A stretch of 64,000 nucleotides of DNA from Methanosarcina mazei S-6 (GTDB lineage Archaea > Halobacteriota > Methanosarcinia > Methanosarcinales > Methanosarcinaceae), in contig NZ_CP009512.1 of NCBI RefSeq assembly GCF_000970205.1, forward strand, positions 2,356,001 to 2,420,000, in the 5' to 3' direction. Position 1 is the stretch's first letter; every line of letters begins with the position of its first letter. Made by a program: the position numbers and the translations under genes. The notes beneath the pieces were generated by a model. The model was not told where the DNA came from. It searched no databases and was given only the letters and a program-made list of their open reading frames with translations. Of this stretch, positions 7,186 to 35,943 are shown piece by piece.

Positions 7186-8643
7186 TCAGGGTATAGTTAA
7201 CGGCGCTCTCTTGAGCGCCGCTATAATACCCTCCAAAACAGGTAATCCGTTCTTTCTAATTGTAGAGATGTAAGCTCTAATTCTGCAGAAAGCTTCCGCT
7301 CCTTGTATAGTTCTGAAAGTTCCTGATATTTTCTGCTGTAATTTCATCATCCTGATATCTCTTTCTGCTTGATTATTCTCAAACGGAACTTTCAAATCTG
7401 TCAGGAATCTCAGAATATTTTCTTTGTGTTCTATAAACCTATCTAGCAGATTCCTTGCTTTTGTTTTTGGATTTTTTCCACGTTTTCCTTTCTTTTCAGG
7501 ATTTAGAGATTGTGGATTTTCTTCAATTCCTTTAATTATGATAGCATCGAACCTTTCTTCCAATGCTTTAATTTGCTCAAAATCCAGTTCTTTGACTTGA
7601 TCCTTGCATTCGTCGGTATACTTTTTCATCTCAGTGAGCAATTCATTCATTTCTTTAGCCCACTGCTGTTTATAGTTCTCTTCAATTCCAGTAAGTTCTC
7701 TCTGTAAATGAGCATTACAGAGAGCATGATCACAGTCATAAACGTTGTAAGGTTTCCATCCGTCGTGAACTGCTACTCCCTTAAACTCCGGAAGAATACC
7801 CATAGCGTCTATTGCTTCTGCTCCTCTTTTTGAGTGAGGTAAATAACAGGTGTATTTCTCATTAGAAGCTACATGAAGCCAGTGTCTTTTTCCTTCAATC
7901 TTCATACCAGTTTCATCAAAATTGATTACAGGCGAGGCTAATAACTTCTCTCTAATAACGTTTTCAAATTCCTCTAAATTCTGGAAACATTCTCTTTCTG
8001 CTCTAATTATCGTAGCAGGACAGATTTTTATTCCCATTATGTCCTCAAAAAATTCGGAAATTCTTTCATAGGGGATAAAATGGTGATTTTTACAGTAAAT
8101 AGCTGAAGCTAAAATATTTGGACCATACTGAACTGGATATTTAACTGATTCAGGAAAAACAGCTTTATTTATTTTTCCACAGTAAGGGCAGGTCTTTATC
8201 TGACTTTTGTGTTCTGTAACAATCAGATTTACAGGAGGAATATCAAAGACCTGTCTTTTCTCATAGGCTTCAACTTCAACATTCTCAAGAGTATGGCCAC
8301 ATTCTTTGCAGCAACTCAAAGAATGTTCTATTACCTACTCAGGATGATCAACCATTTCAAGAGTTGTTCCTGGATGACCATCTTGACCTCCAGGTTTTTT
8401 GCCACTCTTTTTACGGAGACTCTTGGGGTTAGGTTTCTCCTTGATAAAAAAATCAGTAGAAGGAGGGCGACTGCTGTTACGACTGTTTTGGTTTAAACGA
8501 GATTCTAATACCTTTACACGTTCTTCGAGTTCAGCAATACGAATAGATTGTTCTTCTATGATAGTCTCAAGCCTCTGGATTACAGAAATTACAGCTTCAG
8601 GACCAGCGTCATAAATGATAAGAATCTCTTCACGTGTAAGCAT
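7186..8643 (-). CDS. IS66-family transposase with in-frame TAG
   Basis: Read as one frame, this gene encodes 485 residues with a TAG at codon 103 (8335-8337). Before the TAG come the N-terminal helical region and the IS66 signature NSSRPPSTD...KKPGGQDGHPGTTL. After it come a zinc-binding segment (CCKEC, CPYC), the DDE catalytic domain (FDETGMKIEGKRHW, AVHDGWKPY, CNAHLQREL) and the C-terminal NNQAERDIRMMK motif. The reading continues as MVDHPE, TAG, VIEHS with no frame change, so a family-typical protein results if the TAG is decoded. In Methanosarcina TAG can specify pyrrolysine; a fresh GAG-to-TAG mutation is the alternative. The 3' end contains a strong hairpin at 7201-7220. Confidence 0.85.
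7201..7220. other. perfect hairpin near IS66 left end
   Basis: CGGCGCTC and GAGCGCCG pair around a TCTT loop. It lies in the last codons of the IS66 transposase gene, just inside the terminal repeat. Such structures near IS ends often limit read-through transcription from the neighbouring DNA; that role is inferred. Confidence 0.6.
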
Positions 8644-22538: not shown

Positions 22539-23159
22539 TTATCTCCTTAAAATAACTCTTGCAGGAGCCCCATCAGCATTTATCTTTATGGGCAGTGCAA
22601 CAAGTTCATACTCTCCCGGCTCTACATTCAGGAGATTCACCCCTTCAATAACCACAACACCGTTTCCTGCAAATTCTTTATGAGCAGGCTTATCCTGATC
22701 TTCGATACGGTCGATAGTAAAATAGTCAAGCCCGATCAGCTTTACTCCATTTTTTACAAGATGGCCGGCAGCCTGCTCTTCTATATAAACAAAGTCTTTA
22801 GTGAGCTTATTTTCGGCTATGAGTTCCGAATTCCTTGTTTTAAACAACAGCCGGATATTGTCTTTTAAATTCACTCTTTTAAGCTCATCAACAGATATTT
22901 TGTGCTCGTCCTTTATCTCTACAACCAGTGCCTTTCCCATTAAAGTGTCCAGATCCAGCTGATTTATTAGGGCCCCTTCCGAAACAAAATGAGCTGGTGC
23001 ATCAATATGCGTACCTATATGGTTACTCATACATATTTTATACAGTTCATACCCTTCTTTCCCGATTGAAGCCAGTCTTTCCTTATCGAATTCAGGGTTC
23101 TCGGGCATTACAACCGTATCTTCAGTTATATCAAGGCTTATATCAATAATCTCTGTCAT
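22539..23159 (-). CDS. cyclase-family metal-dependent hydrolase
   Basis: A 206-residue member of the cyclase / kynurenine-formamidase-like family (PF04199). The hallmark HIGTHIDAPAHF metal-binding motif is present at about residues 47-58, and a second histidine region appears as KPAHKEFAGNG. The downstream segment GEYELVALPIKINADGAPARV is typical. Family members hydrolyse formamides or cyclic amides using zinc or manganese; the substrate here is unknown, and no tryptophan-degradation genes are nearby. The ATG at 23159 (MTEIIDIS) is preferred to the in-frame GTG at 23174 because a GGGGGC element lies just upstream. Confidence 0.83.
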   Translation of the reverse strand: MTEIIDISLDITEDTVVMPENPEFDKERLASIGKEGYELYKICMSNHIGTHIDAPAHFVSEGALINQLDLDTLMGKALVVEIKDEHKISVDELKRVNLKDNIRLLFKTRNSELIAENKLTKDFVYIEEQAAGHLVKNGVKLIGLDYFTIDRIEDQDKPAHKEFAGNGVVVIEGVNLLNVEPGEYELVALPIKINADGAPARVILRR

Positions 23160-23241
23160 CCGTGATGCCCCCACAGATACTCCACAATAAATACAGATAC
23201 CGACAAAAGATAATAAAATTAAGCGAATAATCTGAAATATT

Positions 23242-23360
23242 CAGTAAATTAATAAACTGGACTATTAAGTAAATTAATAAACTGGACTATTAAGTAAATT
23301 AATAAACTGAACTATTAAGTAAATTAATAAACTGAGCTATTAAGTAAATTAATAAATTGG
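23242..23360 (+). repeat. 25-bp tandem repeat, about five copies
   Basis: TAAATTAATAAACTG begins at 23245, 23270, 23295, 23320 and 23345, an exact 25-bp period with a few substitutions. The array fills most of the gap between the cyclase gene and the LLM oxidoreductase gene, next to the latter's stop codon. There are no unique spacers. Confidence 0.93.
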
Positions 23361-23365
23361 ACCAT

Positions 23366-24352
23366 TTATGGAATGGATTCTTTTTTAAGTACAGGAAGAA
23401 CCTTTTCTCCAAAATCCCTGATGAATTTCTCCTGTTCAGAATTGGCATTATGCAAAATGATATTACTGAAACCAAGCTCGATATCTTTTTGAATCCATTC
23501 GATGTGTTTCTCAGGCTCGCAAGAAATCCTTATATGTTCGTCCAGGTCGTCGGGTCTTATATATTTTGAAGCCGAATCAAACTGTTCTGGAGTGTAAATC
23601 TCCTCTTCAACAATACTTTCGATAGTGTTGTTTTTCCACTGCTCATAAGCCCCCTGGCGAGCCTTTTCATCGGTGTTGGAATATGAAAGGTGGACCTGAA
23701 GGTACATAGGTTTTCCTTCTCCTCCACCTTCATGAAAAGCACCCACCATTTTTCTGAGTTTATTGTATGGCTGTGATACTGTCACCATTCCATCTGCCCA
23801 GCCACCTGCCCATTTTGCGGTCTCAGGGGTGAGTGCTGCCCCGATAATTTTTGGCATAGTTTCAGGCTTAACATAAAGCCTGGCTTCTTCTACAGTTATA
23901 TAAGACCCGTAATAAGATACCGTCTCTCCTGAAAACAGCGCCCTTATTACTTCCACACACTCCCGCAGCCTTTCATTTCTTTCAAACTTGGGAGGGTACA
24001 GCTCCCCTGTTATTCTCTCGTTTAAAGCCTGACCGCTCCCGAGTGCCATCCAGAACCTGCCTGGAAACATTTCAGCCAGGGTTGCTGCAGCCTGAGCGAT
24101 AATTGCAGGGTGGTACCTCTGGCCGGGAGCGTTTACGACTCCAAATTCAAGTGAAGTAGCCTGCATAGCCGCTCCAAGCCATGACCATGCAAAACCGGTT
24201 CCTCCCTGTTCAGCCTGCCTGCTGCTCCAGGGCTTAAAGTGATCCGAAGATAAAGCCCCGGTAAATCCGGCTCTTTCAGCCAGCTAAACCCAGTTTAAAA
24301 GCTCCCCGGGCTTGAACTGCTCATGAGAAACATGATATGATAACCCCACCAT
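23366..24352 (-). CDS. F420-dependent LLM-class oxidoreductase with in-frame TAG
   Basis: Read through one TAG (codon 23, 24284-24286), this encodes 328 residues of the luciferase-like, F420-dependent dehydrogenase type. The N-terminus is MVGLSYHVSHEQF...LLNWV, TAG, LAERAGFTG...SSDHFKPW. Downstream are AMQATSLEFGVVNAPGQRYHPA, FPGRFWMALGSGQALNE and the C-terminal ISCEPEKHIEWIQKD. The ATG at 24352 has an AAAGGG ribosome site six bases upstream, so initiation before the TAG is well supported. Starting at the internal ATG 24166 would lose the first beta-alpha unit of the TIM barrel, which carries conserved residues. In relatives a glutamine-like residue is expected at the TAG position (CAG to TAG is one change). 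Pyrrolysine insertion or a recent nonsense mutation are the alternatives. Confidence 0.87.
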
Positions 24353-24786
24353 AAAAACCCTTTATTCCCAATTGCAGATAAAGGTAATTGAGGAAAGCAA
24401 TAACCTGACTAAAGAATCATTCAAGTCACAACCTTTTTGCTGGATAATTGGTCAGGCATTGTTATACGGGTCCATTTTTTACCCCTTTATTTCTACTGGA
24501 AAAATTTAATACAGATTTTTTGTAATTTCAATTTTTGCCTTTAAAATTCATCAAACACCTGAAGATCAAAAGAAGTGTTTCCCATACTTGAGGGAATGTT
24601 CATCAGAGTCTATCAGTTTTTCTCAAACTGCATGGCACGACAGCGTTTCTGTGTAGAAATGAACTGTCAGCGATTTCTTCAGCCTGTACCCCGGCAGAAC
24701 TGATAAATTTACTCAAAATCCGCAGAACTCTTAATCCGTCACTTCTAAGTGGTTACTTTTTAAACTCCTGTCATCATCCGAAATCT
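24353..24786. other. intergenic region upstream of trp operon
   Basis: No gene is seen between the divergent LLM oxidoreductase and trpC. The left end has the oxidoreductase ribosome site and promoter; the right end leads into the trp promoter. No RNA structure was recognised in the middle. Confidence 0.5.
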
Positions 24787-35100: not shown

Positions 35101-35943
35101 TTATTTTTTCCCGGCTTCTAACTTTGAAATTTCCAGGAACCAGTAGCCTCCCCTCAAAACCATTTCACTCTCCGTCACCTTTATTTTATTTTTGAACAGC
35201 GGACAGTCGGTGACAAAAGTATGGAACTCCCCGTTTTCACCGCATGGATCGATTGAAGGATTGTGCTTTTTCAGGTCGCATATGAAATTTTCATCGATCT
35301 TTCTGCCAAGCCACTCTTTTCCCAGCAAATCGGCTTTGACACTGATAAGTATCACCTCAAACCCCGAATCTATGAGGCTATTTATAATCTACCTGGAATT
35401 CTTCTGCCAGAGCGGCATTATCAACTCGAGGCACAGTTCTCCGCAGATCCTGTCTACAAGTTTCCTGTGAGTCTCGATATGCCCGAAAACTGCCCCATCG
35501 ATTTTCTCTCCATTATTTCTTAAATTACGGACCGCTTTTTTGAATTCCTGTTCATATGAAATAAAGTCCTTATGGATAAGGGGAATCCCGAGAGCTTCAG
35601 CCTGTGCATAAAGAAGAGCAGGATTGATGTCATGGGAGCCGCGCCTCCGGATTTCTCTGAAGTTCAGGAGGTGGGTCACCTCAAAACCTTCCAAGATTGC
35701 CCCATAACACGCGAGGCAACCGTCCTTACCTCCGGTCCAGGAAACAACCACCCTTCCTTTATCTGCCTTTTCTTCATCGACCTTTTTTTCATCGACTTCT
35801 TCTTCATCGACATCTTCTTCATCGAGATTTCCCTTATCGATCTTTTCTTTATCCACCTTTCCTTTATCGATCTTGCAGTTATCACTTTTATCGTCATCTT
35901 TTTTGATTCCATCACTCCTGATTAAAACGGGCTCTGTGTTCAT
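35101..35943 (-). CDS. dph6: diphthine-ammonia ligase-like enzyme with in-frame TAG
   Basis: Reading through one TAG (codon 185, 35389-35391) gives a 280-residue protein of the Dph6/COG2102 family, which amidates diphthine on elongation factor 2. The PP-loop VVSWTGGKDGCLA (about 65-77) binds ATP. GHIETHRKLVDRICGELCLE and MPLWQKNSR lie just before the TAG; SLIDSGFEVILISVKADLLG and DPCGENGEFHTFVTDCPLF lie after it, all in one frame. The second half carries conserved residues, so stopping at the TAG should inactivate it. The first 63 residues are an unusual Asp/Lys/Glu repeat (KIDKG, VDEEK types). GGAG abuts the ATG, which is atypical spacing. Confidence 0.88.
35755..35874 (-). repeat. 15-bp in-frame repeat at the 5' end of dph6-like gene
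   Basis: About eight 15-bp units encode pentapeptides KIDKG, KVDKE, KIDKG, NLDEE, DVDEE, EVDEK, KVDEE and KADKG. They form a charged N-terminal extension ahead of the PP-loop. Confidence 0.88.

Follow-up and report, generated by a model that had tools for sequence, protein, structure and literature searches.

A derived in-frame TAG in a luciferase-like oxidoreductase gene of Methanosarcina mazei S-6 as a probable near-neutral pyrrolysine replacement

A Methanosarcina mazei S-6 gene for an oxidoreductase of the luciferase-like (LLM) class is interrupted early in its frame by a TAG, which probably reflects a near-neutral replacement of glutamine by pyrrolysine (Pyl) through a single transition. 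The gene would still be translated, and the replacement would represent tolerated drift and not a new function.

RESULTS AND DISCUSSION

An intact reading frame with one amber codon

The LLM gene (23366..24352, minus strand) was analyzed within a stretch of 64,000 nucleotides, hereafter the window. Translation from the ATG at 24352 to the TAA at 23366 gives 328 codons followed by the terminator, with the TAG at codon 23 (24284..24286, minus strand) as the sole internal stop. The frame around this codon reads MVGLSYHVSHEQFKPGELLNWV-TAG-LAERAGFTG, in agreement with an earlier note on this DNA that had placed the TAG between LLNWV and LAERAGFTG.

The ATG start (24350..24352, minus strand) lies 5' of the TAG and is preceded by a Shine-Dalgarno-like AAAGGG (24358..24363, minus strand), which is represented by AAGGA in the orthologues. 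Further upstream, a TATA-like block, TTACCTTTAT (24378..24387, minus strand), is conserved in the orthologues and is a putative promoter element; the upstream block as a whole, TTACCTTTAT..AATAA-G..TTTTTATG, is common to the LLM gene and both orthologues. The AAAGGG and this shared block make the ATG at 24352 credible as the start, as had been proposed. The first start codon 3' of the TAG is the ATG at 24166, from which the product would be 62 residues shorter. Initiation there was dismissed as nonfunctional, since it would remove the first two predicted strands (residues 3-7 and 32-36) together with helix alpha-1 (residues 15-28). Within residues 1-22 of the read-through protein, H7, S9, H10, E11, Q12, P15, L18, and L19 are conserved in 71 relatives.

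The read-through protein is luciferase-like (PF00296), and its best NCBIfam model is TIGR03885, where its score of 484.4 bits against a cut-off of 398.7 places it within the family. It also exceeds the cut-off of the broader F420 model TIGR03557 (270.8 versus 210.4 bits). Given that the NCBI name for TIGR03885 is FMN-dependent LLM class oxidoreductase, the protein passes FMN- and F420-named models alike. The previous description of the enzyme as F420-dependent agrees with TIGR03557, but not with the name of its best-scoring family. The likeness to TIGR03885 members is also seen in the 48-62% identity to those aligned from outside Methanosarcina; the difference lies in column 23, which is TAG in M. 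mazei S-6 and a sense codon in the others examined.

An orthologue is present in 3 of 31 Methanosarcina genomes, and bacteria account for most of the remaining relatives, other archaea for a few. The orthologue in genome G007 (90% amino acid identity) occupies the same site, with a glycogen-debranching-type gene on one side and a divergent trp operon on the other, and that of Methanosarcina sp. DH2 (G020) still adjoins the debranching gene. In the window, a PF04199 cyclase or arylformamidase-like gene (22539-23174, minus strand) separates the LLM gene from the debranching-enzyme gene. It scores 142 bits to TIGR03035, under the cut-off of 223, and the corresponding site of G007 and of G020 has no counterpart among open reading frames (ORFs) of at least 150 amino acids. 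Tandem CAGTTTATTAATTTACTTAATAGT-like units were observed directly 3' of the LLM gene, at approximately 23230-23365, and none was seen 3' of the orthologues.

Origin and setting of the amber codon

Codon 23 is CAG in the syntenic orthologue of G007 and CAA in that of G020. Among the 71 wider relatives, column 23 is Gln in 42, of which 32 use CAG; the rest have R, K, V, G, I, H, T, L, A, or E. As judged from this alignment, the TAG does not mark a conserved recoding site but arose by a change in the lineage of the window, in the simplest case from CAG. The CAG-to-TAG origin, which the earlier note had put forward as an alternative to recoding, is therefore likely.

An AlphaFold model of the LLM enzyme (mean pLDDT of 91) places residue 23 in the middle of helix alpha-1, with a pLDDT of about 97. 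The conserved residues around the site are H10-E11-Q12, P15, L18-L19, A25, G29-F30, and S36-D37-H38, and residue 23 falls outside them. The alignment indicates that column 23 tolerates varied side chains. With a variable column and a modelled position in mid-helix, a catalytic pyrrolysine at residue 23 is not supported. A role for a Pyl residue near the F420 pocket is likewise not supported, since the column (Q/R/K/V/G/I/H) belongs to modelled helix alpha-1, outside H10-E11-Q12 and S36-D37-H38.

Nearly all orthologues of the methylamine methyltransferases MtmB, MtbB, and MttB retain the UAG, and their pyrrolysine is catalytic. The LLM gene is similar to these genes in having an in-frame UAG in Methanosarcina, and the mttB copy of this genome is similarly interrupted. 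It differs in that its TAG is not conserved and in that residue 23, at a variable column in the middle of a modelled helix, does not look like an active-center site. That pyrrolysine would be functionally important at residue 23, as it is in the methylamine methyltransferases, is very improbable: nothing speaks for it beyond the codon itself, and the variable column, the mid-helix position, and the sense codon in all orthologues speak against it.

Alternatively, the UAG could serve as a valve that restricts the full-length enzyme to conditions with ample charged tRNA-Pyl, as in growth on methylamines. Pyl decoding depends on the growth substrate in Acetohalobium (PMC8211752), and the early position of the codon would make termination cheap. 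However, the TAG is not conserved among the orthologues, and folding of the 100 nucleotides from the UAG, examined for a recoding signal, gave a z score of −1.07, which is nothing unusual. We regard such conditional expression as improbable.

Constraint on the interrupted gene

The LLM gene was inspected for further disabling changes, and no indel, frameshift, or second stop was found. Compared with the 71 relatives, its own amino acid substitutions fall at variable columns, away from the invariant ones. The synonymous and nonsynonymous counts per branch are 67/25 for the window, 27/10 for G007, and 40/14 for G020, so that the interrupted gene has the same ratio of the two kinds of change as its uninterrupted relatives. 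A simple Poisson model was applied, in which the constraint ratio is taken as exact and the unrooted three-taxon branch is not subdivided. With constraint lost along 10% of the window branch, it predicts 39 to 41 nonsynonymous changes versus the 24 observed without the TAG (P = 0.003 to 0.008). Loss of function at any point before roughly the final 10% of the branch is rejected under this model (P < 0.01). Neither of the two marks of a pseudogene, additional disabling changes or relaxed constraint, was observed. The alignment of orthologues that had been suggested as a check gives a divided answer: the sense codons in the orthologues argue against recoding, yet this copy carries no other disabling change.

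These data bear on the main competitor of a tolerated replacement, namely, a recent null mutation, in which CAG changed to TAG in the strain or a young lineage, the UAG mostly terminates translation, and the gene is turning into a pseudogene but has yet to acquire further damage. Such an event would leave one derived transition in just one of the three orthologues, as observed, and the counts are compatible with a loss confined to the final ~5% of the window branch (P = 0.07 to 0.11). The patchy distribution of the gene agrees with it as well: with orthologues in so few of the Methanosarcina genomes, the LLM gene may not be required and could decay freely. Against this stand the lack of decay of any kind in the LLM gene and the pattern of other interrupted frames described below, and overall we find a recent null mutation unlikely, though it is the strongest of the alternatives.

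Decoding of UAG in M. mazei

The genome of M. mazei S-6 contains pylS, with tRNA-Pyl(cta) just upstream, and open pylB, pylC, and pylD frames. Its PylRS matches many solved pyrrolysyl-tRNA synthetase structures and is 454 residues long, like the known full-length M. mazei enzyme. Insertion of Pyl needs no strict context element, and Methanosarcina acetivorans decodes introduced amber codons (PMC8211752; PMC2933860). The earlier proposal that TAG is decoded as Pyl without strict context is thus in line with these reviews and with the pylTSBCD genes of the host. At the same time, UAG also serves as a stop within the pyl operon, where pylB ends in TAG (L150:12189-12191), as stated for M. mazei (PMC2933860). 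In a sample of this genome, TAG is the terminal stop of 25 of 734 ORFs of at least 250 codons.

A further in-frame TAG in the window is found in an IS66 transposase gene (7189-8643, minus strand) at codon 103 (8335..8337). A related IS66 element is present in 13 identical copies across the genome, with others at 87-88% identity, each with one TAG; family members with an in-frame TAG include L116:3125-4555, L136:5493-6923, and L140:8682-10112. The near-full-length copies in other Methanosarcina species mostly carry one TAG too. In these transposases the TAG lies between Pfam domains, and its context, DxPE-TAG-xIEH, is found at the same place in the 12 loci for which the context was listed. The IS66 amber is not new, as a conserved amber has already been described in a transposase family of M. 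acetivorans and M. mazei (PMC2933860). That family resembles the LLM gene in having an in-frame TAG in a non-methyltransferase of the same genome, and is itself represented in the window, but it is multicopy and its TAG is conserved across species. The conserved TAG of this multicopy family makes routine read-through of UAG in M. mazei likely. Read-through of the TAG in the LLM gene is also likely.

The closest precedent for a tolerated replacement is Thg1 (tRNA-His guanylyltransferase) of M. acetivorans, whose in-frame amber, acquired in this species alone, is translated as Pyl and is dispensable for activity (PMC2933860). This Pyl is ascribed to neutral evolution in the work of Heinemann et al. 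2009, as presented in PMC2933860 and PMC3639795. The LLM gene shares with Thg1 the species-specific single amber in an intact frame, the sense codons in homologues, and a host with Pyl genes. The difference is that in Thg1 the Pyl was physically observed and activity assays showed that it is not needed, whereas the LLM gene is known from its sequence.

In the explanation favored here, a Gln codon, most simply CAG, became TAG in the M. mazei lineage, as the comparison of orthologues shows. From known Methanosarcina biology, Pyl-tRNA(CUA) supplied by the intact pylTSBCD system would decode the UAG in competition with release factor. A useful amount of active, full-length enzyme would be made, with Pyl substituted for a surface-type residue of helix alpha-1, where it would have no catalytic role and would be tolerated as a near-neutral change. 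Possible side effects are some truncated product of 22 residues and a yield that follows the charging of tRNA-Pyl. The points that weigh against this explanation are the presence of the gene in only 3 of 31 genomes, the small TAG sample, the use of UAG to terminate pylB, and the comparison of a single M. mazei strain.

Other interrupted frames in the genome

Single-stop frames were explored in a 1.68-Mb sample (41%) of the genome, where frames broken by exactly one stop were listed for each stop codon. Codon-usage scores were too weak for finding interrupted genes genome-wide (0.13 nats per codon), and Pfam domains spanning the stop were used instead; many frames with plausible coding, forming part of those listed, were scanned. 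No domain spanned the stop in the 23 TAA and 28 TGA merged frames scanned in this sample, although nascent pseudogenes should include such cases, which argues against a recent null mutation in the LLM gene. Domains across a TAG were found in the LLM gene, in a PF01902 gene, and in mttB, the methyltransferase gene expected as positive control. The contrast between two single-copy genes with TAG and none with TAA or TGA is suggestive in a small sample. It is not decisive, since mutation alone is expected from codon usage to give a TAG share of 33-44% among nonsense changes.

The PF01902 gene, which is diphthamide-synthase-like (35104-35943, minus strand), has its in-frame TAG at codon 185 (35389..35391), a site occupied by CAG in each of the eight Methanosarcina orthologues compared. 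On this comparison it is a second candidate for neutral pyrrolysine. That a second intact gene in the window shows the same CAG-to-TAG change is a further argument against a null mutation in the LLM gene. It also speaks against a sequencing or assembly error, in which a C was read as T. Such an error would involve a single-base change, as seen here, but it is highly unlikely in a single-contig genome of 99.97% completeness, where two intact genes within the window each show a CAG-to-TAG change independently of the other.

A different LLM oxidoreductase gene in another species (genome G012, L008:1501-2484) also contains a single TAG, in the context WTG-TAG-KVSF. In 13 relatives, this site is CAG in 6 and an acidic codon (GAG, GAT, GAA, or GAC) in the others. 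Only two single internal stops occur among the full-length TIGR03557-type genes of the genus, and both are TAG. Two other apparent stops were discarded: a TGA in an LLM gene of G007 is the normal C-terminal stop or lies past it, and a TAA in G006 is located upstream of the start. Radical SAM genes from 15 genomes, taken as background, showed no internal stop among the matches listed, a comparison that has no power. A pattern scan of viral contigs for strain-level comparison gave no match.

A broader reading would be that M. mazei uses UAG as an ordinary low-frequency sense codon, so that unrelated single-copy genes, such as those of the LLM enzyme and the PF01902 protein, exchange Gln for Pyl and are still made at full length, and Pyl would be spreading by drift through the general proteome at sites that were once CAG. 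We advance this tentatively, as possible but short of probable. The LLM gene and two more cases in the window extend the short list of genes other than those of methyltransferases in which UAG may be drifting into ordinary proteins of a pyrrolysine-decoding archaeon. Such cases show a stepwise path by which a stop codon becomes a sense codon, and automatic annotation would label the genes as pseudogenes or truncate them. Elsewhere in the data, a frame at L138:97-3624 (plus strand) has subtilase and peptidase M15 domains separated by one TAG at codon 816; the two domains belong either to separate genes or to a single protein made by read-through of the TAG.
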